Shown here: positions 5,939 to 30,624 of the stretch, one piece after another
Position numbering within the stretch: the first letter of the stretch is position 1
How the letters are laid out: the number at the start of each line of letters is the position of its first letter
IMG/VR virus record: IMGVR_UViG_3300044655_000464
Location: 1-30,624 of that record
Direction: 5' to 3' (one strand)
DNA length: 30,624 bases
Origin: a virus
Notes under the pieces: model-generated
Told to the model about the DNA's origin: nothing
The model's input: the letters and a program-made list of their open reading frames with translations, nothing else
Databases searched by the model: none
Program-made: the position numbers and the translations under genes

Positions 5939-7090
5939 TTAGTAAGTTACTGCTCCAGAGTATCCAGGAGCTATTAGATATAGATTTAAAGTTCCTCCAC
6001 TAGTTAAAGTAGAAGTTGAGAAGGTAGCTACTCCTGGATATGTAGTACGCACATTACCAGTAGAAGAAGAGATTGTATTGTACTGAGCAGCTGTAAATAT
6101 TCTTACATCAGAGGCTAACCTCCATCTAGTAAATCTTCCTGACTTCCTAGCAGCTACATAGTATTTGTCTGCAATGTTTAATCTTCCGTCATCATTAACA
6201 TCAAATCTGTGATAAGATAATCCATTGACTGTAGACTTACCTAAGATAATATTAGATACTGTTTGAATATCTGTGCTAGTGTAAGCCTGAATTCTTGTAG
6301 GTACATCTACTTGTATATACCATTGCGTACTTGCAGTAGTGGTTCTAGAGAAAGCATAGTATCCTGAAGAGTTAGTATACGCTGTAGCATCTAAAGTCCA
6401 AGAAGAGGTTGTAGTAGTTACTGTCCCTACTTCAGAAGATTGATAAGAATGTGCAGATTGAGAAGGTCTTCTCCAGATAAGATATAATCCATCTCCGCCA
6501 GAGTATTCTTGCATGCGTGCAATAAACGTATAAGAAGTACCTGCGGTTAAACTCACACTGCCGTATTTGTAAGTACCTACTCCTTTACCTCCATAGTATT
6601 CAATAATACTTCCTGTGTTTACTAGCCAAAGATCTGATCCATCATCAGAAGTCATACCAAAAGAATAAGTGCCAGTTTCTGCAGGGGTAAAAGTAAAACT
6701 TACTTCTGTAGCATAGTAATCCCCACTACTAGGAACACTAGCACCTGCAGAAGTTAATGTACTATAAGTTCCAAAATTTAAAGAAGAGTTACCCGACATT
6801 GTAGTTGTTGACCACAAACTAGTGTGAGAGTAACTTGTGTTAAAACACCTATCCATTTCTGATCTCGTAGAAGGATAAGTAGAGTACTGTGTGGTAGCAC
6901 CAGTTCCATTATGAGTTCTATAAACCTTTACTGTAGTAGAGTTATTTCCTGTAGTAGTTGTTGTTCTTTTATAAAGCTTCACAGGAACGTTTATAGCAGC
7001 ACCTCCATTAGCACTGTACATATATCCTGAGTAAGTGAATTGTGCACTCAGTGGGTTCACAAAGAAGAGTAAAACAATGATCCACCTCAT
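5939..7090 (-). CDS. Secreted PA14-domain protein with dockerin-like module
   Basis: The 383-residue protein has a signal peptide (cleavage near SAQ at 15-17), a Thr/Ser-rich N-terminal part and a PA14-like beta-barrel at about 105-210. The latter shows the hallmark TSDDGSDLWL (147-156), then SLTAGTSYTFIARMQEYSGG and a Trp-Arg-Arg-Pro end, as in PA14 carbohydrate-binding domains. After a linker comes a calcium loop DVNDDGRLNIAD at 287-298, with acidic residues at positions 1, 3, 5 and 12 of an EF-hand as in dockerins. It continues into a segment (KSGRF, DVRIFTAAQYN) that is clearly related to one in the 632-residue T9SS-tagged protein of the same operon. No T9SS tail is seen here. The likely role is binding glycans or partner proteins at the cell surface or on the virion. 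It overlaps its upstream gene by 4 bases. Confidence 0.8.
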   Translation of the reverse strand: MRWIIVLLFFVNPLSAQFTYSGYMYSANGGAAINVPVKLYKRTTTTTGNNSTTVKVYRTHNGTGATTQYSTYPSTRSEMDRCFNTSYSHTSLWSTTTMSGNSSLNFGTYSTLTSAGASVPSSGDYYATEVSFTFTPAETGTYSFGMTSDDGSDLWLVNTGSIIEYYGGKGVGTYKYGSVSLTAGTSYTFIARMQEYSGGDGLYLIWRRPSQSAHSYQSSEVGTVTTTTSSWTLDATAYTNSSGYYAFSRTTTASTQWYIQVDVPTRIQAYTSTDIQTVSNIILGKSTVNGLSYHRFDVNDDGRLNIADKYYVAARKSGRFTRWRLASDVRIFTAAQYNTISSSTGNVRTTYPGVATFSTSTLTSGGTLNLYLIAPGYSGAVTY

Positions 7091-9892: not shown

Positions 9893-11791
9893 TTATTTAG
9901 TTACGATAATTTTAGAATGTAAGGTCTCATGCTCTGTTACGACAGTAAGCACATAGACGCCATTAGAGAGACGATCTAGGTTAGTAGTATACTTGTACTT
10001 ACCTGCAGGCATTTTCTCGTTTAAAATGGTCTGTATGCGTCTTCCTACCTCATCAGAGATAGCTACGTCTACGTCAGCATCTTGTTTGATCTGGAATTGT
10101 ATCTGTACTGCTCCATCTGTAGGGTTAGGGAATACGATGATAGAGTTAAGATCATTTAAAGAAACAACTCCTTTGTTAATCCTACGTACCTCAATAATAC
10201 CCATAGCAGGAGTGATGTTCATGTCTTTAGACTTAGCATCACCTACGTATTTAGCACCAGTCCATAAAGCTGCAGTAGCCCAAGAGTCTTGTGGCTTCTT
10301 AGCAATAAACTGAAGAGTGAATACTTGGTCTCCGTCATTTAAGAGGTTTTCGTTAGTTAAGTCAGCTGCTCCCCAAGATACTGTACCGTTAGAAGGGTTT
10401 AAGTAAGAAGTCCACTTCATCATCTTTTCAGTGTTCTCTACTTTCTTAAACTCTAAGTAAGCAGTATCATAACGTAAGTCTAATTGAAGTGCACCCAACT
10501 GTTTGCCATCTGTAAGAACTTTAACAGGAACGTTAACTAAGTTACCTTCATCTACAGTTACTTTAGGCATGTTAATCTCGATAGTTTCTGCAGGGAAATC
10601 ATAACTTACAGTCTCATCAATGATGTAACGCTTAGCATTAGCTGGGTTAGTAATCTTGATAGGAGTCAAACGAGCCATCTTAAATCCTGTAGCGTTAGCA
10701 TCTCCTTTAACAGCTACGTAGTAAGTGATAGAATCACGACCATCAATAGTGTAATCAAAGTTGTTAATAGTAGAGTAAGTAGCAGTTAAGTTAGTAGCTG
10801 ATCCGTTAATTGAGTTGTATTCAGCAACTGTAAAGAACATTACATCTTTCTTAGAGTTAGGCCAAGCTGAGAATCTACCTGCTAAACGACCGTAAACAGA
10901 GTATACGTCAGCAATAGTAATAGAACCATCAGTGTTGTTTACATCCATTGTGTAATAGTCAAATCCAGAAGGAGTGTATTGAGCTAAGATAGATTGGTTA
11001 ATCTTTTGTGCATCTGCAGTAGAGAATACGTTACCAGGAGTCATTGTATCTCCCTTAACTACCATACGTACATCCCAGTAAGTAGTATCCAAGAATTTAC
11101 GGAATACTACAACACCACTAGAGTTAGTTGCTTTAGCTTCTACCTGAGTCCAAGATCCACTAGGGGCTTTCTTCTCTAAAGACACCCACAAGTTCTTAGC
11201 GTCAGAACCTGTTACGTTTTTAAACTTAGCAGCAAATCTTAATACTTTTTGGTTGAAACGACCACCATAAGAGTAAACTACCAAAGTAGTATCGTTACCC
11301 CAGTTAGTAGCTGCTTTGTTAGCAAATGATTTAACACCTGCAACTTTCAAAGTTTTAATAGAATCTAAAGTATTCCATGTTGAGCTTCCTGCGTGCGTGA
11401 AGGTTAAATCAAAGGTAGCTCCGTTAGAATAGTTGTAAGTAGAGCTAGATCCAGTGTAAGCCAAAGTTACTGTCAAGAATCCTTGTGAGTTACTATCTAC
11501 GTACTGAAGATACTGATCTGTAGTAGAGATCTTCAAAGAAGGAACTACAGCAGTGAATGCAGTGTTATCGTAGAATACACGGAATTGCATACCAGTGATC
11601 TTCTCTGAAGTAGAAGTGTTATAGAAATGTAAAGGTGCTACTGTCTGCCCTGCAGTAGTGGTAGCAACTTGGTAACCAGAGTCAATTACGACCCAATGAC
11701 CTGTACCTGGGGAAGTAGCAGAAGATTGTGCTGATGCATTGCCAACCAACAATGTCAACACCCCGATGATAACTTTAAATAGTTTATTCAT
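9893..11791 (-). CDS. T9SS-tagged secreted protein with cohesin-like and dockerin-like modules
   Basis: The 632-residue protein has a signal peptide (cleavage near ASAQ at 19-22), a first beta-sandwich of cohesin type (about 35-175) and a linker domain. A dockerin-like calcium loop follows at 283-295 (DVNNTDGSITIAD, one residue longer than the canonical loop), with the GRFSAW and FFTVAEYN segment after it. A second cohesin-like domain (about 405-535, with VNVPVKVL and LGALQLDLRYD) leads to a C-terminal type A T9SS sorting domain at 551-632: FPNPTDG, a DEVGRRI turn, LSNGVYVL and the final KIIVTK. That tail is the signal by which Bacteroidota T9SS exports and anchors cargo to the cell surface. 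A phage gene with such a tag implies delivery to the outside of the infected host. Surface masking, adhesion or superinfection exclusion are possible roles. Confidence 0.85.
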   Translation of the reverse strand: MNKLFKVIIGVLTLLVGNASAQSSATSPGTGHWVVIDSGYQVATTTAGQTVAPLHFYNTSTSEKITGMQFRVFYDNTAFTAVVPSLKISTTDQYLQYVDSNSQGFLTVTLAYTGSSSTYNYSNGATFDLTFTHAGSSTWNTLDSIKTLKVAGVKSFANKAATNWGNDTTLVVYSYGGRFNQKVLRFAAKFKNVTGSDAKNLWVSLEKKAPSGSWTQVEAKATNSSGVVVFRKFLDTTYWDVRMVVKGDTMTPGNVFSTADAQKINQSILAQYTPSGFDYYTMDVNNTDGSITIADVYSVYGRLAGRFSAWPNSKKDVMFFTVAEYNSINGSATNLTATYSTINNFDYTIDGRDSITYYVAVKGDANATGFKMARLTPIKITNPANAKRYIIDETVSYDFPAETIEINMPKVTVDEGNLVNVPVKVLTDGKQLGALQLDLRYDTAYLEFKKVENTEKMMKWTSYLNPSNGTVSWGAADLTNENLLNDGDQVFTLQFIAKKPQDSWATAALWTGAKYVGDAKSKDMNITPAMGIIEVRRINKGVVSLNDLNSIIVFPNPTDGAVQIQFQIKQDADVDVAISDEVGRRIQTILNEKMPAGKYKYTTNLDRLSNGVYVLTVVTEHETLHSKIIVTK

Positions 11792-13337: not shown

Positions 13338-13370
13338 AACAAAAAAACCCCCAGATTTCTCTGAGGGTTT
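13338..13370 (-). terminator. Rho-independent terminator after the 13391-13690 gene
   Basis: On the minus strand AAACCCTCAGA (13370-13360) pairs with TCTGGGGGTTT (13355-13345) over 11 bases, including one G-U pair, around a GAAA tetraloop. A run of seven T follows from the end of the stem. It begins 20 bases past the stop codon at 13391. This is a textbook intrinsic terminator and cleanly separates this gene from the lysis operon. Confidence 0.9.
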
Positions 13371-13390
13371 CTGTTGCGTAATAGTTATTA

Positions 13391-20300: not shown

Positions 20301-20703
20301 AGTTTGTATTCTGAGAATCATAATAAATTGGTGCTCTAAAACTAGCAGTAGAATAAACTATACCGTTAAAAGTAGAATCTGCATTATTACCGTAGGCAAA
20401 ATTAGCACCTCCATAAGTCGAAAGACCATACCCTGGAGTATTTCCCTCGCCTTGTCCCCATCCACCTGGATGACCTATACCTACTTTATGGTAAAGGTGC
20501 ATATATTCATTTGTGAATCGTCCACGAATACCATATACATTAAGGGACTCACCTCCAGAGAAGTAGGTCGTTCCACCTATTGTTTGTCCTCCAGAGGTTG
20601 TTATAACGTTTGCAGGTACACTTGTTAAAGCATAACTCCCGATGTTACCTGTGTGTATAGACTGGTAACCGCCTATTGTGGTATTGGATAATAAATTAGC
20701 CAT
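14323..20703 (-). CDS. Giant tail fibre with S74 chaperone C-terminus (2126 aa)
   Basis: This 2126-residue protein is rich in Gly, Ser, Asn and aromatic residues, with short repeating units of beta-helical fibre character. Four copies of a RAPIFYDS...YYLDPN unit lie along it, and a shared NWNTAYGWGNHASAGYLTS unit occurs near residues 700-720. The last 115 residues form a peptidase S74 intramolecular chaperone: SDSRVKTNV with the Ser of the Ser-Lys dyad, then DFGFIAQELEEVLPEVV and the final coiled coil (EALRAEVELL). Such chaperones trimerise the fibre and then cut themselves off. The protein probably binds the host surface. Its start overlaps the stop of the 1281-residue fibre by 8 bases, so both are coupled. 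No terminator follows. Confidence 0.88.
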   Translation of the reverse strand: MANLLSNTTIGGYQSIHTGNIGSYALTSVPANVITTSGGQTIGGTTYFSGGESLNVYGIRGRFTNEYMHLYHKVGIGHPGGWGQGEGNTPGYGLSTYGGANFAYGNNADSTFNGIVYSTASFRAPIYYDSQNTNYYGDFAGTSNLNVLYTNYLYIDGTNLTGTQTQLLKNTLDVTTLPYKVDITVNGNANTFYAVQFWGGDQDVWRRIIIKRGYGETAPWDPIGTGVHHGGLLLDWEGNFGGWGGAEYADRIRVFNESYTNVCADMFIYSHSMGYIFMLRGGGAVYHLFSDQPINGFYQSGAPDILYSASTLSYDDAWSGTNQYDVYAPTPLTLGQVNSSRIDGLRTKKQSLLDGRYLRQGIDISGIGNITTTNSYATNFFASNAFYLNGASYYLNSNNGGIYTNARFETAGQLHVGGNAYLAGTYISGNTTWFNGQGSQIALENIGSLARFAFNKLDFYDWQHGIQMEIDGNNVYVNNYLQAGNSLRAPIFYDSNDTTYYLDPNAGTSLKIAGGIETTRSSGTMFSHGAMADAFGWNGDYGTYIGSNVGGTSYLYANGTFYTGGSFRTLIHSGNIGSQNVSYATTAGALSSMNISQFTNNSGYITSGDTTTGIFTTFLGNGTSNISSGYTRVIRNENGTGGNPNYAPILHVAASDTMWQIAGVHAGGTTLVWRSGYSGAWNTPWWTIYHSGNFTDNSSNWNTAYGWGNHASAGYLTSLPSHNHDDRYYTETESDNRYVPYGSLGGSFGLNDNKLYLRTNNDNNHYLWNAADDWEEMVYYTGTGFRIKGSTGNVSGYFTDNGITAIRHYVNTGAFMEGYGSYSSKLGRVAMISFDWNANYDEPYNHGIMSTNFDSSFSDNISINSFNDITLRLDTNGNNAESYLRIMNDTSGNNTFASIGYNGSTYFASFSRDLYVNGGAAGNFGNRLIVGGNSTPYTMQDGNLRPTVYLTGAYPVMTLNHTETGNTSHGPTIQFTFNGLSQRQWVIGCGGSGEFMDFGFSNNAYGNTNWNPHNGIAGYQGNTIMRIIDNAVGIGGDWGAHGSGGNPAYTLDVRGTIYSNTDMRAPIFYDSQDTGYYLDPNSTSRLVQINLGTTNTRLISDEATGYIKLYGSASNYLAIGPYNNNGWLYFENIGNSNGVYFNSPGRYAFDTVDVTPYSDAENSLGNGSYRWAQIYTSGWLRQYGAQGMYNQDYGTHFYSLSSGAWAITGSGGAVELQFRSNHQSTIRGYVYADTSNNIGFLNNAGNWSLRTDSSRNTEIYGSLTLSGGIVTTVSSGSVLLKHAVSEADAWIFQENAANWGLYWKNAPSGNHTFGGYTTLGAELVGMSAANSSGNGVLTSNFTGASSAYAQWMISNFNGYIWSASTIYAVGTMYSAAYRGNANVGGTGEASYHPAGIYSTGTNWLYGTMYVNGNSINDASYFGIIGTNTTPINITGASHKYLTINPGNGYEAMVRYVGGSGSSWYVGKRTTNQLVGTESFHFYSEAAGATVAGIDTSGNIHASGSMRAPIFYDSNDTTYYLDPNSTETSFRGRGEILLGPNTSGQYTRLGGNGGSVDHATVSSSNGNLHIDCKDGFGIYLNYYSRDTIYLGQSASITSDGAYYNGTSAVANSVAWTNVSSRPTALSQFTNDLGNYGGFLTSLGFSYSTGINGNHVVQRDANGYIYASHINFSTGESENPTISSFITSNGDGWSRKSSLAHVRNQLGNYGGWLTTSGKAADSELIDGIDSSRIIFGDGSFGSTNYSDMNNTAQKSGFFFYNQPTGNPFGDWTHWINCMGNSWNPNYGFQLAHAFHSNNFAVRVVANGGFSSWRTIIDSGNIGSQSVNYASSAGSAGSATNAGQLNTYGYLVGENWDTYYTSGKLRVASASGATGVGRPPSSVHNYGSLLSYGISGEDMFQMYFPDNAGNSIANSRKLHYRTGRGAWCDWRTVVDMVGDTLTIVEGGTPKIVVRGSVPYGQATSASIELVGDADGGQTQSYRWISNAPDWSGQELRLERKVNNSFQLVGRVPKNTNNLEWQGTIVQGLSDSRVKTNVVSMTEGLDKIDQIRPVTFDWVPTENVSDREGADFGFIAQELEEVLPEVVHTRGDGYKTVMYEKVVPVLVQAMKEQQALIEALRAEVELLKNK
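16141..20340 (-). repeat. Four RAPIFYDS modules in the 2126-aa fibre
   Basis: Units coding for versions of RAPIFYDSNDTTYYLDPN lie near 16141-16191, 17461-17517, 19191-19245 and 20279-20338. The last is the most divergent (RAPIYYDSQNTNYY). They separate longer unique stretches, marking modular growth of the fibre by duplication. Similar nucleotide sequence between copies offers recombination sites. Confidence 0.8.
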
Positions 20704-23700
20704 TTATCTTTTTGTTTAATTCTTGGACTTGATTAGTTAATTCTTTTACTGCACCTATAAGAGCAGCAGTTAAGCGAGAGTAGTTGACCCCTACAGGTTC
20801 TCCGTTCTCATCATATTGTACAAATTCTGGATACACTTCAGCAACTTCTTCTGCAATAAGACCTAGTTCTGTGGTCTGAGACCCAATCTTATTGTAAGTG
20901 ACTGGTCTCAAATTTACTACCTTTTCTAAATTTCCCTCACTTGTTTCTATGTTTTCTTTTAATTTAAGTGAAGATGATTCTGTAAGGAATCCACCTATAT
21001 TTAGATTTCCAGGAAAAGCAGTGTTACCTGCCCCATCTAATAGCGTAGCAGTTCTAGTTAAACTACTAAATACTCCAGTATATTGTCTTACATAAATAGG
21101 TTCAGTACCATCATCAGAAGTTGCAATTTCAAGATACCCAGCATTAGAAGAAGTGCTATTTGCATGTATTCTCCAAAAATCATTATCTCCTATTGTTCCC
21201 TGTAATGCTGTACCTATATTATTTATAAATGAAATAGTTCCACTCATTGTGCCTCCAGCTAAAGGAAGCTTAGTGGCAATACTATTAGTTACTGTAGTTG
21301 CAAAGTTTGCATCATCCCCTAAAGCAGCAGCCAATTCATCAAGTGTATCTAAAACGCCTGGGGCTCCGTTAATTAGGTTATTGATTTGGGTTGTTACATA
21401 AGATGTAGTAGCGTAACTATAAGATGCATGATTACCCCAAGAATAGGCTGTATCCCAGTTAGACTTATTATAACCACTAATTGAATTAGCTCCATTAAAG
21501 AAGTTTTGAATCTGTGCGTCCGTGTAAGCATTTGTTATACCGTAACCAGATATAGTTGTAGGTGTACTTGTAATAGTAGACCAAGCTTGAGTATGAGCAG
21601 TTACACTTGTAAGATAGCCAGCAGAAGCATGATTCCCCCATCCGTATGCAGTGTTCCAGTTACTTACATTAGTTGAAGTGAAGTTAGCAGATGTCCATAC
21701 ATCTGCATAAGAACTGTAAGCAGTAGCAGACCCAAATGTCTGTTGGTAAATACGCATTCCAATACCACTCTTAAGGAACATAACAAGGTTGTCATTTCCA
21801 CCTGAGCCATCTGTGTAGGAACGCATATGCAAATAATCTGCATAAGGACTACTATTATCATTTCCCCACGAAGTGAATCCAAATTGTAAATAACCTGCAG
21901 TGGTTTCAGAAGGAGAGATAGTTCTATTATCGTATCTAAGAAGTTGTCCTGATTGATTAGTTACTTGACCAGCTTCACCTGCACTATTTGCATAACTTAC
22001 GCTTTGAGAAGCAATGTTAGAAGTAGTAATTGCAGTAGAAGCATTTTGCTTAGCTGCTAAAGCAGTACTTAACCAACCATTTGTTGTTGAATAAAAATCT
22101 CCAGCATTACTAAAATAAAACTTATCACCATCTCCATTGCGATGGAAACCTAATTTATCAGCATCTGTTGTTACCCACCAATAAGCACCTGTAGTAGAAT
22201 TATACCATGTTTGTGAGTATCTATCTGCATTATATCTAAAGTATACACGACTATAGTTATTTTGTTCAACAGATACGTTAAAATTACTTCCATCTAAATA
22301 TAACCAAGTTGTGCCTCCACCTGTTGATCTAAGATAAAAATGACTGGCATCAAAATAATGACCCCCTCCTATACCATTACTAAGGTGTGTATTATTCCAG
22401 GGATCACGTAAGTTTAAGAAACTACTTCCTTTTTGTAATCTTACATTATCTGCAACATCTGCAAACAATAGACTACCAGTCATAGTATCACCTGCAGTAT
22501 TAACCCAAATGTCAGATACTGATGTTAAATATCCTGCTGATGCGTGATTCCCCCATCCGTAAGCAGTGTTCCAATTTGTTGAATTTCCACCTGTTGCAGA
22601 TATAACACCATCTACAACTAATTTAGTTGCTGGAGTAGTATCTCCAATTCCAACATTTCCATTATTTAAAATAGACAATGCTAATGTTCCAGCAAATATA
22701 TCATCATTATTTGCATTAACCCAGAAACGCATAGCAGCACTATAGTCATAAGCCATTCCACCCCACTTAGTACCGTTACTATTAAAGATAAGTCCTGGGT
22801 AAGTTGCTGCTAAAGTTGCTGTTCTATTCCAACCACCTGTACCTGATGCTCCACCAGTAACGTGTAAAGGAGTAGCAGGACTTACAGTACCAATTCCAAC
22901 ACGTACATTATTTGTATTAAATCCTGGAGTAAGTACGGTAAGACCAGTAGTTAAAGCATAGTCAGAACCTGTTCCCCAAGTTTGTACTTTTAAATCTAAT
23001 CTACCTCCACCAGTTACTTGAGAATACTCCAAACCAGCCAGAGGATTATTATCATAAGAAGATGTACCTAATGATAAAGTTGCTGTAGGATTTGCTACCT
23101 TAATACCTACATTTCCAGCAGTTACTAATGATGTAGTAGATCTTGTTAGATTTAAAAAATATAAATTGCTTTGTGAATTATCTGTAGTAAAAGCACCATT
23201 TGTACCATTAACATATAAGTCACCAACTACATGTAGTTTATAAATTGGGTTTGTAGTTCCAATACCAACATTTCCTCCATCGGGGTTTAAGTTTAAGAAT
23301 GCCCAAGTTCCAACTCCTCCTGCATTATCACTTACTTGCAGTTTAACTTGAGAATTGTCAGAGTACATGGTAAGACCTCTAGTGCCTCCACCTGCTCCCC
23401 CTGTTGTAAATCTAGCAATGTTATTCCCAGTAGCTCCACCGTTTACTTCTAATTTATATCCTGGACTATTAGTCCCAATTCCGACATTGCCACTAGAAGC
23501 AACACGCATTTTTTCGGAGTTAGCAGAATTAAAAACTAAAGTCCCATCACTGTAAGGAAAGAATCCTGTACCCCCACTACTAGCATTTGTTAATCCATAA
23601 CCATCATTAACCCAGACTGAAGCTCCAATAATGTACGTTGTTCCTGCAATGTTAGCTGCAAATCCAGCATAAGTTGTTCCTATAGAAAGTCTGTTAGCAA

Positions 23701-24541
23701 CAAAAATATTGTCTGTACTAAACTTAGAAACATAATAGACTCTAGGAGTTCCTGTAGGAGTTCCTGCAGTTTGAGAAGTTGTGTACGTAGTCCAACCCAA
23801 TGTTTGTAGACGCCAACTACCTGTATCCCAAGTAGATCTATAGTATTGTAATTCGTACTTTCTATAGTTAGAAGAAGATTGAGTAAGAACAACCCTTACG
23901 TTATTACTAAAGTAAGTATCATTAGTACTACTTCCATATATGTTTACGTTAATAGCATGATTTTCATTGTTAGTTGGAAAATCACATTCTGCTCTTGCAG
24001 TAATATGAATCCTATAGTGAGAGTTATCAAAGTAACCTGTGTCTCTGTATTCTCCCCAAAGATTAAAAGATTGGCATGTTGATGTTAAAACTACTTCTGC
24101 AATCTTATACCAACCATCACTTGAAGGATACCCATAAGTATGATCTCCTTCTATATTTCCAAAATTAGAAATTAAGTAGGTAGTGTTGTCATAACTTACA
24201 CTTGTTCCTGACATTCTTACTAAGCCAGTTCCGTTAAGTTGTGATTGCTTAGAAGCTATACTGTTTGTAATAGTTGTGGAGAAGTTGGCATCATCACCAA
24301 GAGCTGCTGCTAACTCATTAAGAGTATCTAAAGCTGCAGGGGCTGAATCCACTAAGGCAGCTAATGCACTAGTCACATAAGACTGAGTAGCATATCCGCT
24401 TAAACTAGCAGAAGTTAAGTACCCTTGAGAAGTAACCCAAGATTGTGTAGCTGCAAGAGCTCCATTAATAGTAATAGTTCCCGAGGTAACCACATTACCC
24501 CCTACTATAAGTCCGTTCTTTACGATAAATTCATTAGACAT
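20696..24541 (-). CDS. Tail fibre with S74 chaperone C-terminus (1281 aa)
   Basis: The 1281-residue protein starts at ATG 24541 with MSNEFIVKNGLIVGGNVVTSG, a usual fibre head. A module SAPAALDTLNELAAALGDD near the start recurs close to the C-terminus as APGVLDTLDELAAALGDD. In between are five 'GNVGIGT..P..KL.V.G' repeats and three NWNTAYGWGNHAS units. The C-terminal 95 residues are an S74-type chaperone with SSLKLKENI, LGLIAEEVAEVYPEFV and an EL-rich terminal helix. This domain directs trimer folding and is released by self-cleavage. The gene follows the homing endonuclease stop by 3 bases. Its role is receptor binding or virion decoration. Related modules in three consecutive genes imply duplication. 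Confidence 0.88.
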   Translation of the reverse strand: MSNEFIVKNGLIVGGNVVTSGTITINGALAATQSWVTSQGYLTSASLSGYATQSYVTSALAALVDSAPAALDTLNELAAALGDDANFSTTITNSIASKQSQLNGTGLVRMSGTSVSYDNTTYLISNFGNIEGDHTYGYPSSDGWYKIAEVVLTSTCQSFNLWGEYRDTGYFDNSHYRIHITARAECDFPTNNENHAINVNIYGSSTNDTYFSNNVRVVLTQSSSNYRKYELQYYRSTWDTGSWRLQTLGWTTYTTSQTAGTPTGTPRVYYVSKFSTDNIFVANRLSIGTTYAGFAANIAGTTYIIGASVWVNDGYGLTNASSGGTGFFPYSDGTLVFNSANSEKMRVASSGNVGIGTNSPGYKLEVNGGATGNNIARFTTGGAGGGTRGLTMYSDNSQVKLQVSDNAGGVGTWAFLNLNPDGGNVGIGTTNPIYKLHVVGDLYVNGTNGAFTTDNSQSNLYFLNLTRSTTSLVTAGNVGIKVANPTATLSLGTSSYDNNPLAGLEYSQVTGGGRLDLKVQTWGTGSDYALTTGLTVLTPGFNTNNVRVGIGTVSPATPLHVTGGASGTGGWNRTATLAATYPGLIFNSNGTKWGGMAYDYSAAMRFWVNANNDDIFAGTLALSILNNGNVGIGDTTPATKLVVDGVISATGGNSTNWNTAYGWGNHASAGYLTSVSDIWVNTAGDTMTGSLLFADVADNVRLQKGSSFLNLRDPWNNTHLSNGIGGGHYFDASHFYLRSTGGGTTWLYLDGSNFNVSVEQNNYSRVYFRYNADRYSQTWYNSTTGAYWWVTTDADKLGFHRNGDGDKFYFSNAGDFYSTTNGWLSTALAAKQNASTAITTSNIASQSVSYANSAGEAGQVTNQSGQLLRYDNRTISPSETTAGYLQFGFTSWGNDNSSPYADYLHMRSYTDGSGGNDNLVMFLKSGIGMRIYQQTFGSATAYSSYADVWTSANFTSTNVSNWNTAYGWGNHASAGYLTSVTAHTQAWSTITSTPTTISGYGITNAYTDAQIQNFFNGANSISGYNKSNWDTAYSWGNHASYSYATTSYVTTQINNLINGAPGVLDTLDELAAALGDDANFATTVTNSIATKLPLAGGTMSGTISFINNIGTALQGTIGDNDFWRIHANSTSSNAGYLEIATSDDGTEPIYVRQYTGVFSSLTRTATLLDGAGNTAFPGNLNIGGFLTESSSLKLKENIETSEGNLEKVVNLRPVTYNKIGSQTTELGLIAEEVAEVYPEFVQYDENGEPVGVNYSRLTAALIGAVKELTNQVQELNKKING
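21413..22576 (-). repeat. NWNTAYGWGNHASAGYLTS modules (two fibres)
   Basis: Copies lie near 21413-21465 (divergent, SWGNHASYSYATT), 21608-21662 and 22523-22576 in the 1281-residue fibre. Another is near 18551-18611 in the 2126-residue fibre. The unit is near-identical at protein level between the two genes, showing exchange or shared origin. Confidence 0.75.
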
Positions 24542-24544
24542 GTC

Positions 24545-25255
24545 TTAGTATTTATATTTCCAAACAAATCCGTATGCTAACTTCTTAGTTCCACGAATAC
24601 ACTTTCCTATATGACTATCATCATAATTTAAAGTAGAAGCTATGTTTTTTATGGTAGTTGTCCATTCTCTTATTACAGAATTATCTACTGGGTTAATTTG
24701 TAATATACCACCATGATTTTCTAATAAATTCTTTTCTCTAGTGTTTAAACATGCTAATTTATAACTATCAGGTTTAATTCTATTTTTATTAGCTATTGAT
24801 ATTTTTTTCTTGGCTTCTTCAGAGCAAGCATAATTAGACTTTTTTGGAGCCCTTCCTTTCTTTGCTAAACTCATAAGTTGTTTTGTTTCTTCTGATCTTT
24901 TCTGCCCTAAGTGATGACTGCTTCTTTTTAATTTGGTTTCTTCTGTATCTACTCTACCAAAAGTACCATCTCCACCTGCAGTCATGTTCATACCTAAAGG
25001 ATTGTTTTTGTAGAAAGTATTTAACAAAGTAATATACTCAATTTCTTTAGTAGAAAGTAAGTCGGGATTACATGTTTCTAAAACTTCTAAAGTATGGTTT
25101 TCCCAACCATACTTTTTTATACTATTGTAAATTAAGGGTTGCTTCTTACAGTTACAGTTTCTGTAACAAGAAGTTCTACTAGACAAGCACATAGTTTTAC
25201 CTATGTAAACTTTTCCATTAGGGTTTGTGATTTTGTAAATTGTAGCTTGCTTCAT
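24545..25255 (-). CDS. Free-standing GIY-YIG homing endonuclease
   Basis: The 236-residue protein has a GIY-YIG nuclease domain at about 1-95: TIYKITN (5-11), KVYIGKT (15-21), Arg27 and the metal-binding Glu in KEIEYI (about 71). Three NUMOD3-type repeats (TEETKLKRSSHHLGQKRSEETK and two similar, about 108-160) follow, then a NUMOD1-like DNA-binding segment near 185-233 with IREWTTTIKNIAS, HIGKCIRGTKK and GFVWKYKY. This is the build of phage homing endonucleases that cut an allele lacking them and spread by repair. It sits between two fibre genes without splitting either, so it is free-standing. No intron is evident. It starts 34 bases after the 1556-residue fibre stop and lies in the fibre operon. 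Confidence 0.9.
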   Translation of the reverse strand: MKQATIYKITNPNGKVYIGKTMCLSSRTSCYRNCNCKKQPLIYNSIKKYGWENHTLEVLETCNPDLLSTKEIEYITLLNTFYKNNPLGMNMTAGGDGTFGRVDTEETKLKRSSHHLGQKRSEETKQLMSLAKKGRAPKKSNYACSEEAKKKISIANKNRIKPDSYKLACLNTREKNLLENHGGILQINPVDNSVIREWTTTIKNIASTLNYDDSHIGKCIRGTKKLAYGFVWKYKY

Positions 25256-29971: not shown

Positions 29972-30001
29972 AAAAAAGCTAGGGGTTTTTAGGCCCCTAG
30001 C
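29972..30001 (-). terminator. Rho-independent terminator before the fibre operon
   Basis: On the minus strand GCTAGGGG (30001-29994) pairs perfectly with CCCCTAGC (29985-29978) over 8 bases with an 8-base loop, followed by six T (29977-29972). It ends the gene at 30023-30624. Its T-run ends 12 bases before the next start codon, so the stem overlaps the promoter of the fibre operon (30001-30030). Confidence 0.9.
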
Positions 30002-30030
30002 AAAGATAAGGTTTTAATTAAATTAAGCAA
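30001..30030 (-). promoter_or_regulatory. Promoter of the tail-fibre operon, overlapping a terminator
   Basis: Minus-strand TTG (30030-30028) is followed by exactly 19 bases and TATCTTTG (30008-30001). The -33 half lies within the end of the upstream gene, and the -7 element touches the first base of the terminator stem. Transcription would begin near 29995, inside the stem, so the new RNA lacks the 5' half of the hairpin and is not terminated. Confidence 0.7.
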
Positions 30031-30624
30031 TTTTAATCACCAATACTCTAAGAGCATTTGTAGCAACAGGAGAACAGAATCCTAAAGTAACTACGTTGGT
30101 GGTTGTACGAACTACATCGCACTCTACATCAGCTCCTGTAGCAACCTCGTAAACCTGAACAATAACATCGTTAGTAGCTAAGTTATGAGTCACTACCATG
30201 CTAGTTGCTGGTGCAGCAGGACCTGTTACAGCATAACGCAAAGCAGCTAATCCAGCAGGAGTAACTACTAAGGTTGAGCTTGACATTGCCAATGCTTCGG
30301 CAGTTGTTGCTAATTCTACAACACCTGCAGCACTTGTAGTAGCGTTTACACCACTTACAGTGATAGAAGTTGTTCCTGAACCAGAAACTGTGATACCGTT
30401 AGATCCACTGATTGTGATTCCTGTAATTACGTCACCTGCTAAGTCAGCAGAACTTAAATATTTAATTACACCTCCGTCAGAAACCAAGTATTTGTTTCCT
30501 GTGTAAGCAGCACCAGCGTCAGCAATAGAACCTACGTGTAAAGGCTCAGTTACAGTAGACCAGTAGTCACTAGTCTCATTCCAGATGAAAGAAACGTTAG
30601 TACTTGTTCCTCTTTCTACTTCAA
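30023..30624 (-). CDS. Structural or fibre protein, C-terminal part (cut by window edge)
   Basis: The frame is open from the right edge (30624) to TAA at 30023. An apparent TTG start at 30487 is not a real start, since codons continue upstream in the same frame. The visible 199 residues include ETSDYWSTVTEPLHVGSIAD, repeats of Ser/Gly/Thr-Val strands (GITISGSNGITVSGSG), a helix-like AAGVVELATTAEALAMSS segment seen in phage tail fibres, and a C-terminal beta-sandwich (TNDVIVQVYEVATGADVE, VVTLGFCSPVATNALRVLVIKIA). This ending resembles a common adhesin or fibre tip domain of phages. It has its own terminator at 29972-30001 and probably precedes the fibre operon on a separate transcript. No S74 domain is present. 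Confidence 0.8.
   Translation of the reverse strand, partial: EVERGTSTNVSFIWNETSDYWSTVTEPLHVGSIADAGAAYTGNKYLVSDGGVIKYLSSADLAGDVITGITISGSNGITVSGSGTTSITVSGVNATTSAAGVVELATTAEALAMSSSTLVVTPAGLAALRYAVTGPAAPATSMVVTHNLATNDVIVQVYEVATGADVECDVVRTTTNVVTLGFCSPVATNALRVLVIKIA

Follow-up and report, generated by a model that had tools for sequence, protein, structure and literature searches.

How are the transcripts of a virion gene ended, and those of the tail-fibre genes behind it begun, where the two nearly touch? The question arises on the minus strand of a viral genome fragment (IMG/VR record IMGVR_UViG_3300044655_000464; the whole 30,624-nucleotide stretch analyzed is called the window), for which an earlier note had proposed that a fibre promoter overlaps the preceding terminator. 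The answer that we consider likely is a bifunctional junction, insulator and promoter in one element, whose parts are collected in Table 1.

Table 1. Features of the fibre junction and of the predicted fibre unit in the window
Feature	Position	Strand	Remarks
Upstream gene, 3' end, open at the window end	30023..30622	-	Head-decoration profile phrog_2647, E 1.2e-8
-33 element TTG	30028..30030	-	Within the final two sense codons of the upstream gene
-7 element TATCTTTG	30001..30008	-	TAHHTTTG form in 24/24 relatives
Predicted transcription start	29995..29996	-	5 or 4 nt past the -7 box; inferred from Flavobacterium spacing (PMC6847099, PMC9723704, as far as available)
Terminator stem, 5' arm GCTAGGGG	29994..30001	-	Predicted to lie mostly outside RNA from the fibre promoter
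Terminator loop CCTAAAAA	29986..29993	-	One column varies among 17 haplotypes
Terminator stem, 3' arm CCCCTAGC	29978..29985	-	One column varies, G-U in L023
T tract TTTTTT	29972..29977	-	6-7 T per 8 nt in each of 8 distinct element forms (24 relatives)
First tail-fibre gene, 1556 aa	25290..29960	-	phrog_9942, E 2.7e-45
Homing endonuclease gene, between the first two fibre genes	24545..25255	-	phrog_314, E 1.3e-35
Second fibre gene	20696..24541	-	Peptidase_S74 C terminus
Third fibre-like gene, 2126 aa	14323..20703	-	Peptidase_S74 C terminus
Next strong same-strand terminator	13343..13372	-	Likely end of the fibre unit

Reading along the minus strand, a TTG is followed by a spacer of exactly 19 nt and by TATCTTTG, which ends at the first base of the terminator stem; the layout described in the earlier note was thereby confirmed. 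The upstream ORF stops with TAA at 30025-30023, and base 30001, the final G of the -7 box, is the only base that box and stem have in common. The hairpin (30001-29978) contains 8 bp, 6 of them G-C, with T6 directly after it. Hairpin and T tract together fold at -15.6 kcal/mol (z -3.4, a stability reached by 0 of 200 shuffles), and when 22 extra flanking bases are included, the z value is -2.9 and 1 of 200 shuffles is as good. The junction thus combines the stable G+C-rich hairpin and T tract of an intrinsic (Rho-independent) terminator with the TAHHTTTG -7 box and the TTG near -33, about 19 nt upstream, of a Bacteroidota sigma-ABfr promoter.

Pooled over the window and five relatives, the intergenic distances from TTG to TAnnTTTG peak at 19 nt (33 cases) and 20 nt (18 cases), with 1 to 8 cases at each of the other spacings from 8 to 32 nt. 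Within genes there is no peak (12 cases at 19 nt, 18 at 20 nt and 6 to 25 at the others). Because the six records are related and not independent, these counts represent fewer independent cases; still, an intergenic peak at 19-20 nt that is absent within genes indicates that the Bacteroidota promoter is very probably in use in the phage group. The window contains a single TTG-spaced box with its predicted start in a terminator-like stem, and such a combination turned up in 2 of 1000 first-order shuffles of the window (both strands).

The likely start site can be derived from published spacings. Of 434 candidate promoters in F. johnsoniae, 241, with 4 or 5 nt from box to start, were taken as probable, a figure describing candidates selected for that very spacing (PMC6847099, in the part available), and the F. 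psychrophilum box occupies -12 to -5 (PMC9723704, likewise). A spacing of 4-5 nt would place +1 at 29996 or 29995, within the 5' arm. Either start leaves at most 3 bp of the stem, and RNA running from there to the end of the T tract folds at -3.0 or 0.0 kcal/mol, compared with -15.6 kcal/mol for the read-through RNA, so that new transcripts should escape the terminator. The hairpin of the relative L023 is weaker (-12.6 kcal/mol), and truncated at the predicted starts it retains -0.6 or -0.1 kcal/mol. Counting against escape, a start at 29998 or 29997 would leave a 5- or 4-bp stem of -7.8 or -6.7 kcal/mol. The predicted fibre leader measures 36 nt in the window (a length taken from L002, whose sequence there is identical to that of the window) and 34-42 nt among relatives, which fits the mean leader of 33 nt given for F. 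johnsoniae in the available part of PMC6847099. That new transcripts begin inside the stem and escape the terminator, as the earlier note had expected, is therefore well supported at the level of sequence, the predicted start lying in the 5' arm and the truncated hairpin being almost or wholly abolished.

The gap between the upstream stop codon and the fibre start is 62 bp in the window and 60-69 bp in the clade that carries the element (23 of 24 loci placed, L022 being left out, plus L227). Since the next strong terminator lies at 13372-13343, the predicted unit comprises three large fibre-type genes and the homing endonuclease gene; a weaker same-strand match within the first fibre gene (29471-29455) may be a chance one. 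It looks as though the tail-fibre genes form a separate transcription unit through the element. The first fibre gene itself is mosaic. In 11 of 12 relative pairs its first 300-1500 nt are shared and nucleotide identity then falls to ~0.3-0.65, and the identity of the upstream gene in those pairs stays at 0.77-0.99; in the twelfth pair, L002 versus L012, the fibre gene start itself aligns poorly. Because the gene is variable past this shared part, a fixed promoter and an unchanging fibre N terminus could hold expression steady as one fibre is exchanged for another.

On the other side of the junction, the relative G003 gives a view beyond the end of the window. There the equivalent junction, 7.2 kb after a capsid gene (L087:1596-3215), lies between the fibre gene and a 477-aa protein that matches virion-structural profiles. 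The match of this capsid gene to PF23898 (1.9e-30) identifies it as a crass-type major capsid gene. In the window, a fragment, no gene of that type was seen. The best named capsid match (28.5%) is Leptolyngbya phage Lbo-JY46, a phage whose record is not classed in Crassvirales. The upstream unit of G003 begins after another terminator (L087 7455-7484), and from that terminator to the junction no TTG-spaced TAHHTTTG promoter was found on the strand of the upstream gene.

Scanning viral contigs with the upstream protein yielded 78 loci. The element is kept in all of the 24 closest (L002-L025, 80-100% identity) and is absent from the 27 junctions viewed among the 54 weaker loci (L026-L079). These 24 relatives and the window represent 17 haplotypes, across which 3 of the 36 element columns (TTATC through the fourth T of the tract) are variable; between the stop codon and the element 8 of 14 columns vary, and in the adjacent upstream coding stretch 121 of 199 third codon positions. 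Tested against the third positions, the difference has a binomial probability of 6.4e-11, a value that treats columns as independent and uses a 36-column block delimited after the alignment was seen. The first variant, C to A (L020, L021, L023), affects a permitted -7 box position and gives TATATTTG, and the box is TATCTTTG or TATATTTG in 24/24 relatives. The second changes one loop base (L020, L021), and the third one stem base, giving a G-U pair (L023). The promoter spacer is 20 nt in L020, L021 and L023 and 19 nt otherwise, the junction of box and stem being unaltered. The -33 TTG is also retained in 24/24 relatives, possibly under a coding constraint (Ile-Ala); it is the weaker evidence, because similar codons end the gene in the distant relatives L026 and L027. 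This conservation shows that the combined promoter-terminator element is maintained.

According to these observations, the junction would work as follows. Transcripts coming from the upstream virion gene would contain the entire hairpin and end in the T tract. The host RNA polymerase, carrying the Bacteroidota housekeeping sigma factor, would bind TTG-N19-TATCTTTG and start inside the 5' arm, at 29996 or 29995. The new RNA, with no more than 3 of the 8 bases of the 5' arm, could not form the terminator and would continue into the fibre unit, probably as far as the terminator at 13372-13343. With a stop upstream and its own start inside the stem, the fibre unit would be insulated and driven by its own promoter.

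It seems unlikely, though conceivable, that both signals work and that their overlap is an accident of compaction, the start inside the stem having no selected role; a terminator lying fully upstream would then serve equally. Such an ordinary order does exist in the window, where the terminator 13372-13343 precedes a promoter at 13323-13294, every one of the five scanned relatives shows one or more terminator-like sites a short way ahead of a promoter match, and overlaps in other geometries are present as well. However, the register between -7 box and stem is fixed in 24/24 relatives despite the one-nucleotide spacer change in three of them.

The word switch in the earlier note raises another possibility, that a polymerase that pauses or terminates at 29972-29977 physically covers the start region of the fibre promoter, so that the fibres fire only as upstream transcription falls and the two units are mutually exclusive in time or held at a fixed ratio. 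We regard such a true switch as rather improbable; regulation was not shown by any test run, and an insulator plus a promoter is the simplest reading. From the earlier interpretation, the shared base, the predicted start in the 5' arm and the predicted loss of the hairpin stand, and neither the switch nor the high expression ascribed to the upstream gene gained support from any test run.

A location over the start site is typical of operators. The pair GCTAGGGG-N8-CCCCTAGC, at about -5 to +19, might accordingly be a DNA operator bound by a regulator of phage or host origin rather than mainly a terminator, and the loop is nearly invariant as well, which a plain terminator would not require. We think this very unlikely. 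Within the window and those parts of five relatives that were scanned, the spaced pair CTAGGGG/CCCCTAG is confined to this site, single halves being found elsewhere; a T tract follows the hairpin in 24/24 relatives; and the stem change in L023 keeps the RNA pair (G-U) but breaks the DNA symmetry. That only the terminator is functional, with a chance or weak promoter match and fibres expressed by read-through, is highly improbable, for although the -33 motif is weakly defined in F. johnsoniae (PMC6847099, available part) and TAnnTTTG by itself is not enriched in the window (41 observed, 36.2 expected), the -7 box is retained in 24/24 relatives with its sole change at a permitted position, and no other TTG-spaced promoter was found between the upstream gene and the fibre start.

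The insulator-promoter reading raises the question of how widely the arrangement occurs. Eleven phage records, several of them up to their last few kb, were scanned for starts inside stems. A TTG-backed site was found once each in the window, G001, G002, G003, G004 and G007, always at the fibre junction, and also, in a different geometry, in crAss001 and, with a low stem score, in Lbo-JY46; the scanned records of phi4:1, phi14:2 and cr6_1 had none, and neither had one shuffle of each scanned record. With a looser stem threshold G004 gains two overlaps with weak stems, and with the TTG requirement dropped there are 3 additional sites in G001 and 2 in G002; all these extra sites have weak stems or other geometries, or lack the TTG. 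A general design of the phage group was ruled out, since five relatives have one TTG-backed site per genome at the stricter threshold. A second candidate, in G001 and L129 (TATATTTG, 1 nt, a hairpin and directly after it tRNA-Leu), was set aside for want of a TTG at 18-21 nt; this junction of box and then terminator lies at about 4230-4300 of L080 (reverse strand), a contig in which the tRNA-Leu was called. In G001 and G002 (L083, L101), the -33 TTG of another promoter falls within the 3' arm of the terminator before it.

Pattern scanning of viral contigs gave 42 loci. The same element, with TTG-spaced TAnnTTTG, is present in 24, and the remaining 18 hairpins lack the combination of TTG and box. 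Among genome contigs there were 10 matches, and the one whose flank was examined (L194, JAFMJI010000035.1), a 45-kb contig in a Chitinophagaceae MAG, carries the phage element. A pattern search of 296 genomes from the phylum of that MAG returned 6 with a match, one being the same MAG, and 400 kb of one of these genomes contained 20 TTG-backed promoters, 148 terminator-like sites and one predicted start in a stem, of different geometry.

Relatives were also collected by capsid protein, using the best 80 loci of at least 600 matches. Of these, 41 were tabulated; 38 of them extend at least 6 kb downstream, and in 33 the downstream part measures 8.7 kb or more, so that the junction position is covered. 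The element was found in 1 of the 38 capsid relatives (L227, the contig of L020), 5 of which have less than 7.3 kb downstream and may end before the junction position; L274 has a start-in-stem match lacking the TTG. In 8 capsid loci (84-86% capsid identity), those where an L255-type fibre homologue could be placed, the fibre start lies 8-12 nt past the preceding ORF and there is no such element; three of them have one gap sequence in common. Two of these 8, L243 and L255, were compared with G003: their preceding ORF aligns with the 477-aa protein at 34-35% over 121 aa, and their fibre ORF resembles the G003 fibre along 141-220 aa. In L026 and L027 the stop codon overlaps the next start codon. 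Such close packing suggests co-transcription in these relatives, and among the relatives examined the insulated fibre unit, seen only in the element clade, looks specific to that clade.

The phages of this group are freshwater phages that probably have Bacteroidota hosts. The host of the window phage looks like a Bacteroidota because a window gene (9893-11791, minus strand, 632 aa) encodes a C-terminal Por_Secre_tail type IX secretion sorting domain (2.9e-11), in addition to a Cohesin domain (1.1e-13). The N terminus of this protein resembles a signal peptide by eye, and the protein is present in 5/5 relatives at 77-99% identity; its sequence suggests that it may be exported by the type IX system of the host. 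The binning of L194 is a further, weak hint to the host. Another minus-strand gene (5939-7090, 383 aa) has a weak PA14 domain match (1.4e-5).

The element suggests a way for a phage clade to set up a fibre gene as an independent, insulated unit using about 60 bp, one element serving as end and beginning, and it is a ready test piece for Bacteroidota transcription. Promoters may overlap terminators in general. In T7, the terminator Tphi follows the major capsid gene. LUZ100 has a T7-type terminator after its major capsid gene, which likewise separates one virion gene from following structural genes; unlike here, the capsid unit uses a phage-specific promoter, and the available part of the report mentions no overlapping promoter (PMC10134795). 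In Kayvirus, terminator t97 and promoter p98 follow each other immediately before a structural gene, but p98 comes after t97 and late transcription reads through, whereas the box at the fibre junction precedes the stem and shares a base with it (PMC7698491, in the part available). The open-licence papers PMC10134795, PMC7698491, PMC7566282, PMC4245973, PMC6316719, PMC10994844 and PMC3890552 do not describe the arrangement in their available parts, which cannot show it to be unpublished. In the crAss-like phage crAss001, the gp39-gp40 gap (L185, MH675552, about 35.07-35.13 kb) also has a promoter match of Bacteroidota type within a terminator-like hairpin; there, however, one arm of a single long hairpin holds the TTG and the opposite arm TATATTTG, an arrangement seen in one record. 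The Bacteroidota sigma-ABfr promoter (TTG / TAnnTTTG, -33/-7) agrees with the junction in its boxes and in the predicted 4-5 nt to the start (PMC6847099, PMC9723704, both as available), and the 19-nt spacing is the one preferred in the phage group, but at the junction the box is fused to a terminator stem. Both parts are thus known in kind, and what is new is their conserved overlap by one base.
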